A stretch of DNA of 64,000 nt, taken from NCBI RefSeq assembly GCF_006094435.1, contig NZ_CP034783.1, positions 1,577,001 through 1,641,000 on the forward strand, read 5' to 3'. Positions within the stretch are counted from its first letter, which is position 1, and each line of letters starts with the position of its first letter. Shown here one piece after another: positions 55,833 to 64,000 of the stretch. The stretch comes from Pseudomonas sp. MPC6. Lineage in GTDB: Bacteria; Pseudomonadota; Gammaproteobacteria; Pseudomonadales; Pseudomonadaceae. The position numbers and the translations under genes were made by a program. Under the pieces are notes generated by a model that saw only the letters and a program-made list of their open reading frames with translations, ran no database searches and was not told where the DNA came from.

Positions 55833-57926
55833 ATGGCAAACCCGGACGCCCTGAGTCAGCAGCGAGCTTCTAGTCGCCTGCTGCAACCGACCGTCAAATC
55901 GCATCTGGCCTACACGCTACTGTGTGCCCTGGTCATGATGGTCATGTTCACCCTGCTGCGCGTCGCGCTGCTGGTCTACAACCGCGAGATGATGCTCGAC
56001 ACGCCGGCCTCGACCTTTTTCGAAGCGTTCACCAACGGTCTGCGTTTCGACCTGCGACTGGTGGTCTACTTCAGCGTTCCGCTGGTGCTGGCACTGTTCA
56101 GCGCCCGGGCCATGGCCGCCCGCGGGTTCTTCCGTCTCTGGCTGACCGTCGTCTCGAGCATTGCCTTGTTCCTCGGCCTGATGGAGATGGACTTCTACCG
56201 CGAGTTCCACCAGCGCCTCAACGGGCTGGTCTTCCAGTACATCAAGGAAGACCCGAAAACCGTGACCAGCATGCTCTGGTACGGTTTCCCCGTGGTTCGC
56301 TACCTGCTGGCCTGGGTCGTGGGCACCGTGATCCTGACCCTGGCGTTCAAGGGCGCCGACCGCGCCACCCGTCCCCGCGGTCCCTTCAGCGGCGGCAGCG
56401 TCTCCACGCGCCAGATCGCCCCGTGGTATTCGCGCATCGCGGTGTTCGTGGTCTGCCTGCTGGTCTGCGTCGTCGCAGCCCGTGGCACCCTGCGTCAGGG
56501 CCCGCCGATGCGTTGGGGTGACGTCTACACCACCGACTCCAATTTCGCCAACCAGCTGGGCCTCAACGGCACATTGTCGCTGATCGCCGCGGCCAAGAGC
56601 CGGATGTCCGAAGACCGCGACAACATCTGGAAAGCCACGCTGCCGCAGCCGCAAGCCCAGCAAATCGTGCGTGACATGCTGGTGATGCCGGATGACAAAC
56701 TGGTGGATGGCGAGACGGCCGCCGTGCGTCGCGATTACACGCCGCCGTCCGACAAGACCCTGCCGATCAAGAACGTCGTCGTGATCCTGATGGAAAGCAT
56801 GGCGGGCCACTCGGTGGGCGCCCTGGGTGCACCGGGCAATATCACGCCCTACCTCGACAACCTGTCGAAGGAAGGCTTGCTGTTCGACCGTTTCTTCTCC
56901 AACGGCACCCATACCCACCAGGGTATGTTCGCCACCATGGCCTGCTTCCCGAACCTGCCGGGTTTCGAATACCTGATGCAAACGCCTGAGGGCAGCCACA
57001 AGCTGTCCGGCTTGCCGCAATTGCTCAGCGCCCGTCACTACGACGACGTGTACGTCTACAATGGTGACTTCGCCTGGGATAACCAGTCGGGTTTCTTCAG
57101 CAACCAGGGCATGACCAACTTCATTGGTCGTAACGACTTCGTCAATCCGGTGTTCTCCGATCCGACCTGGGGCGTGTCCGACCAGGACATGTTCGACCGT
57201 GGTCTGGTCGAGCTCAAGGCGCGGGAAAACGGCAAGCCGTTCTATGCACTGCTGCAAACCTTGTCCAACCACACGCCATACGCCTTGCCGACCCCTTTGC
57301 CGGTCGAGCGCGTCACCGATCGCGGTAGCCTGAACGAGCATTTGACCGCCATGCGCTACTCGGACTGGGCGCTGGGCCAGTTCTTTGAAAAGGCCCGCAA
57401 GGAGCCGTACTTCAAGGAGACCCTGTTTGTCGTCGTGGGTGACCACGGGTTTGGCAACGAGCGCCAGATCACCGAAATGGACCTGGGCCGCTTCAACGTG
57501 CCGATGCTGTTCATCGCACCCGGTATCCAGGAAAAGTTCGGTCAGCGTGACCATACCGTGGGCACACAGATCGACATCGTGCCGACCATCATGGGCCGGA
57601 TCGGTGGCGAAGTGCGCCATCAGTGCTGGGGGCGTGACCTGCTCAACCTTCCCGAAGGCGATACCGGTTTCGGTGTGATCAAGCCGTCGGGCAGCGAACA
57701 GACCACGGCCATCATCACGGCCGACCAGATTCTGGTGCTGCCGAAGGATAAGGACATGGCGCCGAAGATGTACCGGTATGAATTCGGTGCTACGCCGCGC
57801 GCCGAGGTCATTGCGGATGCGCCGCGAACGGCAGAGCTGAAACTCAAGCTCGAAGCGTTCCTGCAAACCGCCACCAAGAGCCTGATCGACAACACCGCCG
57901 GCGTGGTGGACGGCAAGCCTGACTAA
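55833..57926 (+). CDS. LTA-synthase-family membrane sulfatase-type transferase
   Basis: A 697-residue protein. About five hydrophobic helices lie in the first 220 residues, followed by a periplasmic alkaline-phosphatase/sulfatase-type domain from about 310. LMESMAGHSVGALG opens the domain and FFSNGTHTHQGMFATMA has the threonine that is the nucleophile in LTA synthases; GDHGFGN near 535 is a metal site. In Gram-negative bacteria this family includes phosphoglycerol and phosphoethanolamine transferases such as OpgB relatives, so it probably modifies envelope glycans or lipids. Single gene closed by a terminator. Confidence 0.86.
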   Translation: MANPDALSQQRASSRLLQPTVKSHLAYTLLCALVMMVMFTLLRVALLVYNREMMLDTPASTFFEAFTNGLRFDLRLVVYFSVPLVLALFSARAMAARGFFRLWLTVVSSIALFLGLMEMDFYREFHQRLNGLVFQYIKEDPKTVTSMLWYGFPVVRYLLAWVVGTVILTLAFKGADRATRPRGPFSGGSVSTRQIAPWYSRIAVFVVCLLVCVVAARGTLRQGPPMRWGDVYTTDSNFANQLGLNGTLSLIAAAKSRMSEDRDNIWKATLPQPQAQQIVRDMLVMPDDKLVDGETAAVRRDYTPPSDKTLPIKNVVVILMESMAGHSVGALGAPGNITPYLDNLSKEGLLFDRFFSNGTHTHQGMFATMACFPNLPGFEYLMQTPEGSHKLSGLPQLLSARHYDDVYVYNGDFAWDNQSGFFSNQGMTNFIGRNDFVNPVFSDPTWGVSDQDMFDRGLVELKARENGKPFYALLQTLSNHTPYALPTPLPVERVTDRGSLNEHLTAMRYSDWALGQFFEKARKEPYFKETLFVVVGDHGFGNERQITEMDLGRFNVPMLFIAPGIQEKFGQRDHTVGTQIDIVPTIMGRIGGEVRHQCWGRDLLNLPEGDTGFGVIKPSGSEQTTAIITADQILVLPKDKDMAPKMYRYEFGATPRAEVIADAPRTAELKLKLEAFLQTATKSLIDNTAGVVDGKPD

Positions 57927-58010
57927 GTGTTCAGGCGATAAAGCAGAGCCCGGGATGGGCTAGTGCCTGTGGTCAAGGTTTTCTGCTTGCTCTTTCGGCA
58001 GTAAAAAAAG

Positions 58011-58044
58011 AATCCGGTGTCAGTAATGACAGCGGATTTTTTTT
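58011..58044 (+). terminator. Terminator after the LTA-synthase-family gene
   Basis: AATCCGGTGTCA and TGACAGCGGATT form a 12-base stem (one mismatch) with a 4-base loop, followed by TTTTTT. It lies 85 bases after the stop. Runs of A before it allow a role on the other strand too. Confidence 0.86.
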
Positions 58045-58418
58045 GCTCCTCGTTCGGGGTGCCTACCGCTTTGAAGTACTGGATCAAAGAGCAGTTGAAG
58101 GGGAGTACCTGTCAACTCTGACAGTAGACAGCCTAGTGGTTTGAGGATTTCATCAAGGCGCTTGGTATGGGGTCCAACGATTGAAAAAAGGACTGTATTT
58201 CAAGGATGAATGTCTCTCTGTTCCTGTCTCTTTGGCGTCATTGCCATGTCGTGATCATGCAGTTGGAACCTGTGGGAAGGCATTCCAATAGAAACGCCGG
58301 GGTCGGCTTTGGCTTTGGGTTGCCTGCCGCCCCGGTTCAGGTGGTTCACCGCAGGACACTGAATCAGCAGATTTGTCCGAAAGGTTGAAACGCTTGGCTG
58401 ACGAGTGAGGCTTGCTTC
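58045..58418. other. Gene-poor region before the DUF1592 gene
   Basis: With the terminator this makes a 492-base stretch without a supported gene. It contains CTGTCA / TGACAG (58109-58124), a perfect 6-base inverted repeat with a 4-base spacer that may be an operator. A 60-codon open frame (58206-58388) has no similarity or codon bias that I trust. The promoter of the large gene downstream must be here but I cannot place it. Confidence 0.5.
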
Positions 58419-61400
58419 ATGAATAAGTCTGTCGGTGTGCTTCGTTTGCTGTGGTTCGCATGTCTGGTGGCGCTGGGCGTGATCATTGCCGTGGTGGTTT
58501 TCACCCGAACATCAGAGTCATCCCCCTCACCTCGGTCATGTACCGCGCCCGATTATGAAAAGGGCAAGAGTTATGAGCAGGGGGACCAGGTCAAGCATGC
58601 CGACCGGCTATTCGAATGCTGGAAAGATGACGAGGCACCACTGGGTGTCGGCAGTTGGCAGTGGTGCCGGCAAGTGAGTTACGAGCCACTTCTTTTGAAT
58701 GGGCCTTGGAAAGATGCATGGAAGGAACTCGGCGAATGCGGCGGATTCGCGGGCAATCGCCTGACGCTGGATTTTTCCACGCTCAGTGGCAAAGCGCCCT
58801 TGAAACCGGCGGTGCCCGGCGTCGCTCGCGCCGACCAAATGGTCACCGGAGTCTTGCGTTGCAAGGCCGAAGAGATTGCGATCAGCGCGAAGGCCAACGA
58901 AACGATCCACCTCGATAATCTGAAAGCTTGCGACTATCAACTGGTGATGAATACCGCTGATGGGTTCAGCCCGCTGAACACTCCACGCATTATCTCGTTC
59001 AAGGAGCCGCAGGGGGAGGAGCAAGCCGTGACGGTCAAGTATCGACCGCCGGTCGATGTGAGCAAGCTCAGTGGTTTGCCGGGGATAAAAATCGAGCTGT
59101 TTGCCCAGGGGCTTATTCAGCCTCGGCAGATGGCGATGGGCAAGAACGTGTTGTATGTCGGCTCCAGCGCTATTCCTTCATACGTCTATGACGGAAAAAT
59201 CGGCGACATGATCTACGCACTGCCTCTGGATGAGACAGGTAAACCGATAGGCATCCATGTGATTGCCAGTGGTCTGGAGGAGCCTCACGGCGTGGCGTAT
59301 CGCGACGGTGATCTGTATTACTCGACCACGGGTGGTCTGTATCGCTTGCGTAACGCCGACGAAAACTACAAAGCTCCAGAGCCCGAACTGGTGTTCAACT
59401 TTCCGGCGGACGACAAGCAGTTTCCCTTGCCTTCGCAAGCGTCGGGGTCGAGCACTCGCATCTGGCACATGAAACACCCTTTGCGTTTCAATCCGCTCGA
59501 TCCGTCAGACAAGTGGATTTATACGGCAGTCGGCATTCCCTGCAACCTGTGCATGATTCCTCCCGACAAGCGTTATGGCACGATCTTGCGTTATTCCCTG
59601 GAAACAGGAGCGTCCGAGATTGTAGCCACGGGGGTGCGTAACTCCGTTGGTTTCGACTGGAATCCCCAGGACGGCCAAATATGGTTCAGTGACAACAATC
59701 GCCAAGGCTTCCCCAACCCGGACGAAGTCAACTTGATCAGCAAGCCCGGGCTGCATTTCGGCGTGCCTTACAGGTTTGGTAAAGACACGCCCGGATTCAC
59801 CGAGGAGGAGTACCTGGACCCAACGGTGATCCAGCCGCCGCTGGTGCCAGGTGCCATTGTGTCTGACAAGTCGCTTGAACAGATCAATCCCGCCGATTAT
59901 GTGTCAGCAGCTTTTGCCTCGGGAACCAACACCGCGCCGCTGGGCGTCAAGTTCTGGTCTGGCTACCCAAGCGCCGGGCCGGGTACCCAGCGTTTGCTTG
60001 TCGCGATGCATGGTGCGGGCTCCACCGCGCGCCCCGGCATGGATATACAAATGCTGACCATTCAGGGCGGTACGCAAGTAGTCAATCAGATCCCGTTGAT
60101 CAACGGATTTGTGCAGGACCCGGATCGATTCGATGTCTACTGCCTGGATAACTCGTGCATCGGACGCCCCGTCGAGTTTCTTGAACTGGCGGATGGCAGC
60201 CTGTTGATCAGCGACGACGTCGCGGGGGTCATATATCGCGTGCGCCATGACGCAAGCGGTTTGCCACAGACTCGGTTGGAGTTGCGCCCCATGCTGCCGC
60301 CAGGCGGACTGGAAAACGAGATGATCAGCGGTTACCTGATTGATCCCGATGGGAATACCCGGCTGGTGCAATTGTCATGGCGCGACGCAGACAGTGCGGC
60401 AAGAATTATTCTCGAGGGGCTTGAGTATGGTCAGTATCAGTTGCGGCTCAACGACGTAAAAAACTGGATTCCTCAGGTACGAAATACATCCTTTACCCTC
60501 TCGGAAGCTACCAAGAGTCAGACCATCACCCTGAATTACCGCGAGCGGCCGATCAAGCTCGAGGTCAAGGTCAAGATTCAGGCGCCGGCCAAACCTGCTT
60601 CGGTCACCGATGCTCAATGGCGCATCAGCCTGGTCACCGAGGCCAGGAACAATGCTGAACCACGGGTCATTGAAGTTCCATGGGGTGCAAGTACGACCCA
60701 AACCCTCGACTATGGCAGTTACAAGGTTATCTACCCGTTCTACTCGAAGGAAAAACCGCAGCCGGAACTGGAATCGGTAGTGATCGATGAGGCGAGTGAG
60801 GACCAGCAGCTAACCCCCATTACCTATCGGCACGTCGAAAACCTGGGCGAGGCGGTCTTGGCTGAATCCTGCACCAAATGCCACGCCGTCGAGTATTTCG
60901 ACAGTTTGCGCATGGCTTTGGCGTGGAGCGTGGCGGGCCAGGATGCGCTGGTCAAACACATCAAGACCATGCCGGTGTCAGGGCACTGTGACACCACCTG
61001 TGCGACCGAAATCAGCAAGCAATTGATCAACGTCATCTGGAAACCTTACCTGGATCAGGCCGATTCCTACGGCACACGTCAGATGCGATTGTTGACGCCC
61101 GACGAGTATGCCGCCAGCGTCAGGGACATCCTGGGGGTAGAGATCAATGCCGAGAAGTTGCCAGCAGACAAATCGGAGAAAGACTTCAAGTATCCCGGGG
61201 AGGCGGACAAGGGCATTTTGCAGGCAGAGGACGTCAGACTGTTCTACGACATGGCATTGTCGGTGGCAGACAGCGTTCCGTCGGCACGCTTGAGTGCGTT
61301 GGCAACCTCCCGCGCGGGAACTGACCTGGTTACCTCGTTGGGCTATCAGTTGTTCCGTCGTCCTGTGTCCGACGCCGAGCGTGTGCGTTATCAGAAACTG

Positions 61401-62543
61401 TTCGATGAGCAGGGGGCGCCTGCTTTGATCGCCGCTCTTTTGCTATCGCCGCATTTTCTCTATCGCTCGGAGTTGGGGGTGCAGACACCGGCTGGAGGCA
61501 AAGTGTATCAATTGACGCCGTTCGAAGTGGCCACTGCGCTCTCCTTCGGTTTCCTGGGCACTACTCCGGATGTTGAGCTGTTGGCCAAGGCGCAGCGAAA
61601 CGAGCTGCAGACTACGCAACAGATCTCCGCGGAGATTGAGCGAATGATGAAAACGGATCGCGGCATCGAGCAATTCAACCGCTTCGTCAGCTACTACGTC
61701 AGGACAGTGCGCGGTGTTCAGGAAAAGCCGGGGTTGAGTAAGGACCTGGTTGAACTGATGGCTCGAGAGCAGTATCTGCTGAGCAAAAACCTGCTGCTGG
61801 GTGCCGGTACCCTGAGTCAGCTGTTCAACCCCGGTTACACCTATCTGAACCAGGACCTGGCCGCGCACTACGCAATCAGCGGAGTCACGGGCAGCACGAT
61901 GCAAAAGGTAGCGGTAGACGAGAGACGGGGAGGCTTGTTGCATCTGGGGCTGACCCAGGCTGCCACCTCGGACTACGTGAGCACTTCATTGGTCAAGCGT
62001 GGAATCATGATTCGCGAGCAAATGTTCTGCCGCGAGTTTGGTGCCCCCGTGGAAGCCGATCCTACGACCCCTGTCTATCCTCCTCGCGCAGTGACCACCC
62101 GTGAGCACTGGGACCTGGTAAACGGCGAGCAGGCTTCAGAGGGGCGCTGCTGGCAATGCCATCAATACATGAATGACACCGGGTCATCGATGGAACATTA
62201 CGACGCGGCCGGTCGCTATCGCACGGAGGAGAAAGCCTACAACTTTGACCAGTACCCGCAGATGCTACCGATCAAGGCCTCCGGTCCGTTCATCAGTACG
62301 ACCGGAACCGAGCAGATCAATGACGTCCGGGATATCGCAAAGATTGTTCCACGCAATCCAGCGTCACAATTCTGCATGGCCGACAGCTACTTCCGATTTG
62401 TGTTTGGCAACAAATCGGATGTATCGACCTCGGGGACCGTGAAGGCGATTGCCGATGGTTTGAACGCCTCAGGCTCCCTGGCAGAGATGCTGCAAAACCT
62501 GGGTACTTCCAAAGCATTCATCTACAAGACCGAAAGGAATTGA
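58419..62543 (+). CDS. Large membrane-anchored DUF1592/1588/1585 protein with sugar-dehydrogenase-like propeller and two CxxCH motifs
   Basis: A 1374-residue protein. A single membrane helix (about 9-28) anchors it outside the cytoplasm. Residues ~40-75 (YEKGKSYEQGDQVKHADRLF) resemble a CBM5/12-like carbohydrate-binding module. Residues ~223-610 look like a sugar/sorbosone-dehydrogenase beta propeller (EEPHGVAYRDGDLYYS, GVRNSVGFDWNPQDGQIWF). A heme-type CTKCH is at 818. Then come the planctomycete-type segments: TPDEYAASVRDILGVE near 892, LGYQLFRRPVSDAERVRY near 973, LLSPHFLYRSELG near 1008, CWQCH at 1244 and FCMADSYFRFVFG near 1318. AGTGAGG precedes the ATG. Function unknown; it pairs with the DUF1552 gene. 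Confidence 0.82.
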   Translation: MNKSVGVLRLLWFACLVALGVIIAVVVFTRTSESSPSPRSCTAPDYEKGKSYEQGDQVKHADRLFECWKDDEAPLGVGSWQWCRQVSYEPLLLNGPWKDAWKELGECGGFAGNRLTLDFSTLSGKAPLKPAVPGVARADQMVTGVLRCKAEEIAISAKANETIHLDNLKACDYQLVMNTADGFSPLNTPRIISFKEPQGEEQAVTVKYRPPVDVSKLSGLPGIKIELFAQGLIQPRQMAMGKNVLYVGSSAIPSYVYDGKIGDMIYALPLDETGKPIGIHVIASGLEEPHGVAYRDGDLYYSTTGGLYRLRNADENYKAPEPELVFNFPADDKQFPLPSQASGSSTRIWHMKHPLRFNPLDPSDKWIYTAVGIPCNLCMIPPDKRYGTILRYSLETGASEIVATGVRNSVGFDWNPQDGQIWFSDNNRQGFPNPDEVNLISKPGLHFGVPYRFGKDTPGFTEEEYLDPTVIQPPLVPGAIVSDKSLEQINPADYVSAAFASGTNTAPLGVKFWSGYPSAGPGTQRLLVAMHGAGSTARPGMDIQMLTIQGGTQVVNQIPLINGFVQDPDRFDVYCLDNSCIGRPVEFLELADGSLLISDDVAGVIYRVRHDASGLPQTRLELRPMLPPGGLENEMISGYLIDPDGNTRLVQLSWRDADSAARIILEGLEYGQYQLRLNDVKNWIPQVRNTSFTLSEATKSQTITLNYRERPIKLEVKVKIQAPAKPASVTDAQWRISLVTEARNNAEPRVIEVPWGASTTQTLDYGSYKVIYPFYSKEKPQPELESVVIDEASEDQQLTPITYRHVENLGEAVLAESCTKCHAVEYFDSLRMALAWSVAGQDALVKHIKTMPVSGHCDTTCATEISKQLINVIWKPYLDQADSYGTRQMRLLTPDEYAASVRDILGVEINAEKLPADKSEKDFKYPGEADKGILQAEDVRLFYDMALSVADSVPSARLSALATSRAGTDLVTSLGYQLFRRPVSDAERVRYQKLFDEQGAPALIAALLLSPHFLYRSELGVQTPAGGKVYQLTPFEVATALSFGFLGTTPDVELLAKAQRNELQTTQQISAEIERMMKTDRGIEQFNRFVSYYVRTVRGVQEKPGLSKDLVELMAREQYLLSKNLLLGAGTLSQLFNPGYTYLNQDLAAHYAISGVTGSTMQKVAVDERRGGLLHLGLTQAATSDYVSTSLVKRGIMIREQMFCREFGAPVEADPTTPVYPPRAVTTREHWDLVNGEQASEGRCWQCHQYMNDTGSSMEHYDAAGRYRTEEKAYNFDQYPQMLPIKASGPFISTTGTEQINDVRDIAKIVPRNPASQFCMADSYFRFVFGNKSDVSTSGTVKAIADGLNASGSLAEMLQNLGTSKAFIYKTERN

Positions 62544-62545
62544 TC

Positions 62546-63910
62546 ATGGGCATTTTGAAAAGTCGTCGGCGTTTTCTGGCGGGCCTGGCTGCGGCTGGTG
62601 TCTATGGTCCCCTGACCCAATTCGGATTGGCGCGCATGGCATTGGCGGGGCAAGCTCAGGAAGCCCGGCTAAAGGTAGTGTTTGTTGTAGTACCCGACGG
62701 CCTTGCGGTGGACTCCTACACCGGTGGTGGTTTTGGTGACGGGCGTGGATTGTGGCACCCCACTGCGTCGCAAATGGATACCACGGCATTTACTTTGAAC
62801 GAGATCAGCTCGGAATTGGCCGCCTACCGTAACCAGTCGTTGTACTTGCGCGGAATTATTCTGGGGCCGGGAAATGTGGGCCATGACGGCTGGAACTGGG
62901 TATTGCGTGACACTGCAAAGACTCAGTCGTCAATCGACATCGTGCTGGGGCAAGCGATTCCGGGTGCTGAACCGTCGCACCGCAGCCTTTTTTCCGGTCC
63001 CCATGCCGGGATCGACGGGACGCCCTGGTTTGTATCGTTTCAGGGCGCTGCGATTCGCACGCCCTATCGCGACCCCAGGCTGATGGCGGAATCGTTGTTC
63101 AAGGCACCCGCTCAAAGGTCAAGCCCGCCGCAGCCTGGCGCTGGTAGTTTGCTGGAGGCAGCCGTGGTGGATATTCAGGAAGTCAAAAGCAAGCTATCCG
63201 CCGGCGAGCGACAAAAGCTTGATACCCATCTTGACTCGGTGGAGCAGGTCATCAAGGACCTTGAGGAGGCGCGGCCGCCCGTGGGTGAGTGCAAGCCGGT
63301 GGAGCTGGAACCACTGGATTATCGGTCCGCGCTGCACCGTAACCGCATTCAGGCTGATCATCATCAAGTGGTGGCAACCGCCTTGGGTTGTGGGATTACC
63401 CGTGTCGCCACGCTACAGATCGGGCGCTCGGCGGAGTCGCTCAATATTATTGATGTCAGTCCCGACAGTAACCCTCATGAGTGTGCTCATCGTCGCTCAG
63501 GGGAAGCATTTTGGAAGGGGACGCGGCAATGGTACGTTCGGCAGGTCAAGTTATTTATGGACGAATTGGCTCGATATCAGGATCCGCACGTGCCCGGTGA
63601 CAATCTGCTTCAACATACCCTTGTCGTCCTTACCAGCGAAATGGCCGATGGCGCCCCTGAGCACATGATCGATATGCCCATGGTGTTGATGGGGGGGGCT
63701 GGTGGCTTGCTTAAAAGCGGGGAGGGTGCAGGACGGTATTTCAATATCACGCAGCAGGCGGATCGTCAGCACCACACCGGGAACCCGGAGATTGGCAAGA
63801 GCTTCGTTGACATGCAGCGCATATGGGCGACCATTGCCAAAGCCGCCGGAACGAGCGTGCCTTACGCAGGTAACATCGAGCCGGTGACAGGAATTTTCAG
63901 CAACGTGTGA
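62546..63910 (+). CDS. Tat-exported DUF1552 protein
   Basis: A 454-residue protein. The N-terminus has a twin-arginine signal (SRRRFLAGLAAAGVYGP at residues 7-23), so it is exported folded, probably with a cofactor or metal. The mature part is DUF1552, distantly like sulfatase/DUF1501 proteins: VVPDGLAVDSYTGGG, NVGHDGWNW, VLTSEMADGAPEHMIDMPMVLMGGAGG are characteristic. AAAGGAA precedes the ATG at 62546, 2 bases after the previous stop, so the two genes are translated from one message. DUF1552 and DUF1592 genes are adjacent in planctomycetes and myxobacteria. Confidence 0.85.
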   Translation: MGILKSRRRFLAGLAAAGVYGPLTQFGLARMALAGQAQEARLKVVFVVVPDGLAVDSYTGGGFGDGRGLWHPTASQMDTTAFTLNEISSELAAYRNQSLYLRGIILGPGNVGHDGWNWVLRDTAKTQSSIDIVLGQAIPGAEPSHRSLFSGPHAGIDGTPWFVSFQGAAIRTPYRDPRLMAESLFKAPAQRSSPPQPGAGSLLEAAVVDIQEVKSKLSAGERQKLDTHLDSVEQVIKDLEEARPPVGECKPVELEPLDYRSALHRNRIQADHHQVVATALGCGITRVATLQIGRSAESLNIIDVSPDSNPHECAHRRSGEAFWKGTRQWYVRQVKLFMDELARYQDPHVPGDNLLQHTLVVLTSEMADGAPEHMIDMPMVLMGGAGGLLKSGEGAGRYFNITQQADRQHHTGNPEIGKSFVDMQRIWATIAKAAGTSVPYAGNIEPVTGIFSNV

Positions 63911-63954
63911 GGGCGGTTTGCAGCGCTGTGGGTGCGTGAAATGCTGATAATAAC

Positions 63955-63990
63955 AATGCCAGTCAGTATCACTGACTGGCATTGGGTTTT
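63955..63990 (+). terminator. Terminator after the DUF1552 gene
   Basis: AATGCCAGTCAG (63955-63966) and CTGACTGGCATT (63972-63983) form a perfect 12-base stem with a 5-base loop, followed by GGGTTTT, 44 bases after the stop. It marks the end of the two-gene unit. Confidence 0.82.
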
Positions 63991-64000
63991 CAGCAGGTTA

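Follow-up and report, generated by a model that had tools for sequence, protein, structure and literature searches.

The window analysed here is a 64,000-nucleotide stretch of Pseudomonas sp. MPC6 DNA (contig NZ_CP034783.1), near the end of which an accessory cassette carries two genes on the forward (+) strand. Gene 1 (open reading frame 58419..62543, 1374 aa) joins a carbohydrate-binding module (CBM73), an AA12-like propeller, beta domains, an X183-like cytochrome and an X132 region (PSD3/PSD5/PSD4/PSCyt3), and, as judged from its sequence, belongs to the Cbp2D family as a variant whose single chain also holds a candidate electron-generating domain. Gene 2 (62546..63910, 454 aa) encodes a protein with a twin-arginine (Tat) signal and a DUF1552 (HXXSHH) domain of alkaline-phosphatase superfamily fold, and this protein is a strictly co-occurring partner of gene 1. 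The domain order, the folds, the conserved cofactor-site residues, the pairing and the accessory status were all established by computation. As to function, we give about an even chance to a cell-surface or periplasmic, chitin-directed pyrroloquinoline quinone (PQQ) dehydrogenase-cytochrome (a quinohemoprotein) that works here without a lytic polysaccharide monooxygenase (LPMO). A preliminary description of this stretch had recognised the two-gene module with its 1374-residue first product, which was borne out, and had proposed a redox system of the periplasm or cell surface with a polysaccharide as its target, a view that is supported and that the domains found here would sharpen to a chitin-directed sugar dehydrogenase-cytochrome. 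That description covered only the C-terminal part of gene 1 and missed the CBM73 and the AA12-like propeller, which lie before residue 790.

Domains of the gene-1 protein

The predicted chitin-binding module, CBM73, spans aa 37-112 (58527..58754, +) and matches 6z41 (CjCBM73) with E 2e-6 when the 18-sequence profile A6 is used. C41, C67, C83 and C107 align with the disulfide cysteines of CjCBM73, and W82, Y88 and W97 align with its binding-surface aromatics, these residues being as named in the available part of PMC8449059. The profiles come from 24 full-type loci: A4 and A5 use 21 of them (without L020, L023 and L025) and A6 uses 17 (L010, L011, L015 and L016 also excluded). Ahead of the module, a hydrophobic stretch at aa 8-28 (58440..58502, +), read by eye, is a probable anchor and makes the membrane anchoring asserted in the preliminary description plausible; several relatives from other genera have, again by eye, lipobox-like ends in its place.

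The AA12-type PQQ dehydrogenase-like propeller occupies aa 208-611 (59040..60251, +). Its predicted structure is of the AA12 kind, like the fungal PQQ sugar dehydrogenases, and it filled the list of structure matches for gene 1; identity to CcPDH (Coprinopsis cinerea) and TrAA12 across the aligned propeller is 18-19%. Counterparts of the AA12 catalytic His, Arg-Asn pair, first-blade Arg, second His and C-terminal Arg are all present when residues are mapped by motif and spacing, with no superposition. In alignment A2 (the window plus 65 of the 120 listed gene-1 relatives, 124 having been found), R236, H350, R407, N408 and H531 are invariant in 66/66 sequences, and R583 is kept in 55/66. All-beta linker domains, seen in the secondary structure of the model, follow at aa about 620-794 (60276..60800, +).

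CxxCH occurs in gene 1 only at residues 818 and 1244, as the preliminary description had stated. The first motif, CTKCH (60870..60884, +), belongs to the X183-like cytochrome c (aa 795-885; 60801..61073, +), in which the CxxCH at 818-822 and M851 are invariant in 66 sequences. Against the PDB, profile A5 of this domain first matched 6xkx_p, a CcoP-type chain (E 0.00092, in several short pieces), and then 8q1v (E 0.0017; its single stretch 0.023); the solved CjX183, 7b21, was absent among the 27 matches. 8q1v is probably an X183 domain, although the code does not appear in the available text of PMC10916295. We take residues 795-885 to be of the X183 type (PMC8981238 and PMC10916295, both in partial text) because of the 8q1v match, the CDxxC motif common to both and the position ahead of X132.

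The X132 region (61086..62540, +) comprises DUF1587 (890-929), DUF1595 (969-1018), DUF1592 (1032-1153), DUF1588 (1170-1271) and a C-terminal part, and contains the second heme motif, CWQCH (62148..62162, +). All four Pfam matches are above cut-off (DUF1592 E 2.4e-23, DUF1588 6.2e-23, DUF1595 1.3e-9, DUF1587 5.7e-6). DUF1592, DUF1588 and DUF1587 are among the domains that the preliminary description had proposed to search for; DUF1585, which it had also named, was not detected in the gene-1 protein at E 1 and is matched in 6 of 14 aligned relatives. That X132 corresponds to this DUF1587/1595/1592/1588 set we infer from the DUF1587 in the Cbp2D figure legend and from two Cellvibrio loci described below. 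In an alignment of 74 rows (the window and 69 loci; shorter matches were dropped), H1248 of the CxxCH is kept in 99% of sequences, the next His column in 65% (Gln in the window) and M1114 in 84%, while Y1015, Y1151 and R1194 reach 99-100%. Since, H1248 apart, His conservation tops out at 65% and Met conservation at 84%, the X132 heme may lack a fixed Met/His sixth ligand.

The DUF1552 partner

Identification of gene 2 as DUF1552 (PF07586) was confirmed at 92.2 bits (cut-off 30, E 5.8e-26). The 2-base gap between the genes claimed before holds with the probable start at ATG 62546, which is preceded by AAGGAA and lies 2 bases past the gene-1 stop; the alternative start in the open reading frame list, TTG 62540, adds 2 residues. 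Tat export, also proposed earlier, agrees with the N-terminal SRRRFL, R9 and R10 of which are Arg in 58/58 relatives reaching that point (66 aligned), though the Pfam TAT model on gene 2 stayed below its cut-off. The HxxxH site (63476..63490, +) consists of H313 and H317 (456-aa numbering) within NPHECAHR, the local form of HXXSHH, which here reads HECAHR with both metal-type His kept. H313 and H317 are His in 65/65 and H115 in 62/62 of the sequences reaching these columns in the 66-row locus alignment, from which shorter matches were dropped; a separate alignment, A1, holds the window plus 76 of the 120 listed DUF1552 relatives (151 found). The model (mean pLDDT 83.4) has the alkaline-phosphatase/sulfatase superfamily fold, and among ligands of the alkaline-phosphatase type the HxxxH and H115 are conserved and the others vary (no residue-level superposition). 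The protein is probably metal-binding. A kinship to the LtaS-like flank by profile was rejected (75-column local match, probability 2%).

The pairing is strict in the genus: DUF1552 is present in 12/12 Pseudomonas genomes with a full-length gene 1 and in 0/386 others, G136 with its 406-aa PF07631 frame being counted with the latter. Across 77 sampled loci, mostly from Proteobacteria and Myxococcota, with 84 PSD genes, DUF1552 lies next downstream of 68 genes, a contig end truncates one, and 15 fall in neither class. For 14 of these 15 the locus holds a DUF1552 gene at another position, which may belong to another PSD gene; in most myxobacterial loci this position is upstream.

Related systems and possible functions

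Among the closest known systems is Cbp2D of Cellvibrio japonicus (CBM2 - X158/YceI - X183 - X132). Like Cbp2D, the gene-1 protein has a cytochrome, here X183-like, and X132 in its C-terminal half and a CBM toward its N-terminus; unlike it, it has CBM73 in place of CBM2 and the AA12-like propeller in place of the YceI-like quinone-binding domain. The sampled Cellvibrio loci L033 and L035 show the Cbp2D layout (CBM2-YceI-cytochrome-PSD) followed by DUF1552. With CcPDH and TrAA12 the protein shares the propeller fold and most cofactor-site residues, and with CcPDH the union of propeller, cytochrome and CBM in a single chain; it differs from CcPDH in having c-type hemes and not an AA8 cytochrome b, CBM73 and not CBM1, and in the additional X132 and DUF1552 partner. 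TERTU_3803 and TERTU_2913 of Teredinibacter turnerae are also described, in the available part of PMC10916295, as large, secreted proteins with X183 and X132, and TERTU_3803 likewise has CBMs and a propeller-like domain, but of the pf08450-X173 type; Teredinibacter is not named among the homologues listed (120 of 127, most of them nameless). Planctomycete, verrucomicrobial and myxobacterial PSCyt3/PSD genes share the DUF1592/1588 family and an adjoining DUF1552, whereas the full CBM73-propeller-X183 front was seen, among the 77 loci, only in Pseudomonas, Xanthomonadales and Vibrio. A DUF1501-DUF1800 pair by bacterial chitin synthase genes (PMC5122149, partial text) offers a parallel only, since it too is connected with chitin genes and has one member exported by Tat but consists of different families, and a Cellvibrio DUF1592 protein with CBM2 is recorded in a lignocellulose community in the accessible portion of PMC6004670. 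Among the open-licence PMC papers listed, no title or abstract start describes the CBM73-AA12-X183-X132 architecture; the term DUF1552 occurs in two papers, neither of them on Cbp2D. As far as the DUF names go, the earlier statement that such pairs lack an established function stands, but a knockout of Cbp2D, which shares the C-terminal half, has, according to the available parts of PMC8981238 and PMC12542752, a phenotype on insoluble cellulose.

In the quinohemoprotein reading that we favour, CBM73 would dock the gene-1 protein onto chitin and the AA12-type propeller, with PQQ and Ca2+, would oxidise C1 of a reducing sugar, the simplest substrate being a chito-oligosaccharide or a chain end. 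Electrons would first reach the X183-like domain, at its His/Met heme, and next the heme of X132, which could pass them to an acceptor or use them itself; the Tat-exported DUF1552 protein would act on the same substrate or assemble with X132. We infer here that PQQ and hemes are loaded, which sugar is used, which way the electrons flow, where the protein sits and what DUF1552 does. The gene pqqC was found in 13/13 carriers and 37/40 controls, so PQQ is at hand in every carrier. The MPC6 genome itself has two full pqqC copies (G000:C4:3646510-3647214 and C4:6482532-6483236), and at least two copies over cut-off occur in 6/13 carriers compared with 2/40 controls (p 0.0016, uncorrected for kinship).

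Several observations weigh against this reading. In the propeller, by the same mapping of residues, the PQQ ligand His539 of CcPDH corresponds to N504 (Asn in 51/66 sequences), and the Ca ligand Asp451 to Q429 (53 Gln and 11 Asp of 66); Asp451 is itself described as less preserved in the part of PMC6881789 available. The GSDH profile reaches 20.5 bits on the propeller with a cut-off of 25, the Pfam TrAA12 family (PF22807) has no match at gene 1 (it is precomputed on many gene-1 homologues among the matches listed), and a profile search with the propeller retrieves no AA12 chain. With a pTM of 0.59 for the gene-1 model, domain placement is uncertain. A profile search of the MPC6 genome gave no match to AA10, GH18 or GH19, so that the link to chitin rests on CBM73. 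GH18 is present in 1/13 carriers and 7/40 controls, and GH19 matched in 10/13 carriers, only partially (over 58 to 116 of its 232 positions), carriers alone having been covered by that search; chitinase companions were rejected. The strongest published counter-arguments are, in our assessment, the negative T. turnerae propeller and X183 results: as far as the accessible text of PMC10916295 goes, the propeller-X173 pair of TERTU_3803 bound no PQQ and had no glucose dehydrogenase activity, though this propeller is annotated as of the pf08450-X173 type.

An unlikely alternative would make the protein the bacterial equivalent of cellobiose dehydrogenase or of CcPDH, with hemes that reduce the copper of chitin-cutting AA10 LPMOs. 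CcPDH (AA8-AA12-CBM1) drives LPMOs (PMC5960967, partial text), the X183 domain of Cbp2D is reported in the available part of PMC8981238 to reduce bacterial AA10 LPMOs, and an AA10 gene is present in 8/12 full-length carriers. Against the 196/386 of the other genomes that frequency gives p 0.38, three full-length carriers besides MPC6 have no AA10 match, and the T. turnerae results are called 'inconsistent with' LPMO electron donation in the text available of PMC10916295. The absence of AA10, GH18 and GH19 matches in MPC6 weakens an LPMO-feeding role, and such feeding cannot be the whole story in this genome.

Slightly less probable again is a propeller without PQQ that serves for binding or support, with the X132 heme as the active centre of an oxidative attack on the polymer, along the lines put forward for Cbp2D/Cbp2E and cellulose; the accessible part of PMC12542752 proposes a direct cutting of cellulose by these proteins, beyond electron transfer. 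The conservation across the 74 X132 sequences fits a heme with no fixed Met/His sixth ligand, and Cellvibrio relatives keep X132 and DUF1552 with this propeller missing. Against it stand the invariant PQQ-contact residues of the propeller and M1114, which is possibly the sixth ligand in most sequences. That DUF1552 is the enzyme, a polysaccharide ester hydrolase, with gene 1 as a targeting and redox scaffold, is highly improbable, as the usual DxxxH pair reads HxxxH, D53, E367 and H375 differ among members of the wider family, and no solved protein was found by sequence at E 10.

A bolder form of the quinohemoprotein reading, which we regard as doubtful, is a self-sufficient, LPMO-independent oxidation of crystalline chitin in which the PQQ propeller and X183 would feed a catalytic X132 c-heme, with the DUF1552 metal protein as obligate partner. 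If true, this self-sufficient chitin machine would represent the Cbp2D/Cbp2E system in complete form, and a domain set familiar from planctomycetes, verrucomicrobia and myxobacteria would acquire a function. The AA12-type propeller, the X183-like domain and X132 stand here in one chain, in a small cassette of Pseudomonas, where gene removal is routine; DUF1552 is brought into a Cbp2D-type context, and the genome, with no AA10 match, would offer a setting without LPMOs.

Cassette borders, spread and origin

The cassette is accessory in Pseudomonas, since about 6.06 kb here replace the 33 bp (L081) to 140 bp (L089) that separate the matching blocks in nine relatives. The segment, with both genes and their own upstream and downstream DNA, covers 57952..64000 without strand and ends at about 64016, 16 bases beyond the window end; the match to the nine relatives ends at 57924-57951 and restarts at 64014-64020 (window numbering extended into L002). 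In these nine genomes the sulfatase and SDR genes flank a site that lacks the cassette; they are the informative ones among 22 loci of other Pseudomonas genomes, the other 13 having no SDR gene within about 5 kb. Because relatives have the sulfatase gene upstream (55833-57926) without the module, it counts as flanking DNA and was rejected as part of the cassette. Two further features noted earlier were confirmed: the unit has its own terminator-like hairpin (63954..63984, +; -25.9 kcal/mol, z -7.7), and its composition is less GC-rich than its surroundings (GC 0.565 and 0.579 for genes 1 and 2 vs 0.610 for the whole window; GC at third codon positions 0.68 and 0.64 vs 0.83 in the sulfatase gene). 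Comparison of the 200-bp ends gave no direct repeat of at least 8 bp, hence no transposon signature, and one 8-bp inverted match; plasmid carriage was rejected, gene 2 having no match in PLSDB.

The genes are not core to Pseudomonas, PF07631 being found in 13/398 genomes (MPC6 included), 12 of them with a frame of at least 1370 aa. The cassette occupies the same place in P. lini, P. umsongensis and two Pseudomonas sp., and the remaining Pseudomonas loci have different neighbours; in L012 some genes of the MPC6 site lie 5-9 kb from the cassette, so the two sites may be close together. The nearest relatives among the matches listed are from other Pseudomonas, Lysobacter, Luteibacter, Dyella, Stenotrophomonas and Vibrio. 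A gene-1 tree (quick method, several long branches flagged) sets the window together with the 14 Pseudomonas loci to one side of a branch with SH-aLRT 98, and the gene-2 tree is compatible with this grouping but weak there (43); the two were built from 23 and 29 rows. We read the cassette as coming from a gammaproteobacterial pool and gained at this site, though not a recent arrival in Pseudomonas as a whole; that the nine relatives lost it is a less simple account. The transfer suggested in the preliminary description therefore stands as regards accessory status and gain, and a planctomycete, verrucomicrobial or myxobacterial source is not supported, the nearest kin listed being gammaproteobacterial; a planctomycete or myxobacterial donor was rejected.

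The CBM73, propeller and X183 profiles all match the loci of Pseudomonas, Lysobacter, Luteibacter, Dyella, Stenotrophomonas and Vibrio, and the propeller profile matches no other locus of the 77; L025 and parts of L023 have no full frame of this type, and L026 and L028 have CBM73 and X183 matches and no propeller. Among the listed homologues, GbpA_2 occurs in P0081 and P0105 from Vibrio, and CBM5/12 and PKD domains occur in P0113. Proteins P0105-P0111, each over 2000 aa (Vibrio, Photobacterium, Shewanella and Agarivorans where named), combine the same propeller with domains of the LamG, CBM or cytochrome kind, most of them lacking the PSD set among the matches listed, and in P0086 (854 aa) part of the propeller is fused to DUF1552, through a deletion or an assembly artefact. 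A weak PF07631 match at G136:C1:1472166-1472402, in a 406-aa frame of a genome without DUF1552, is a remnant or another protein. In Pseudomonas cedrina (L023 4470-8485) gene 1 is split into two overlapping frames and possibly broken. Beyond the window end, some 2.7 kb downstream of the cassette, lies a transposase frame (L002 3729-4757), which we take to be IS110-like.

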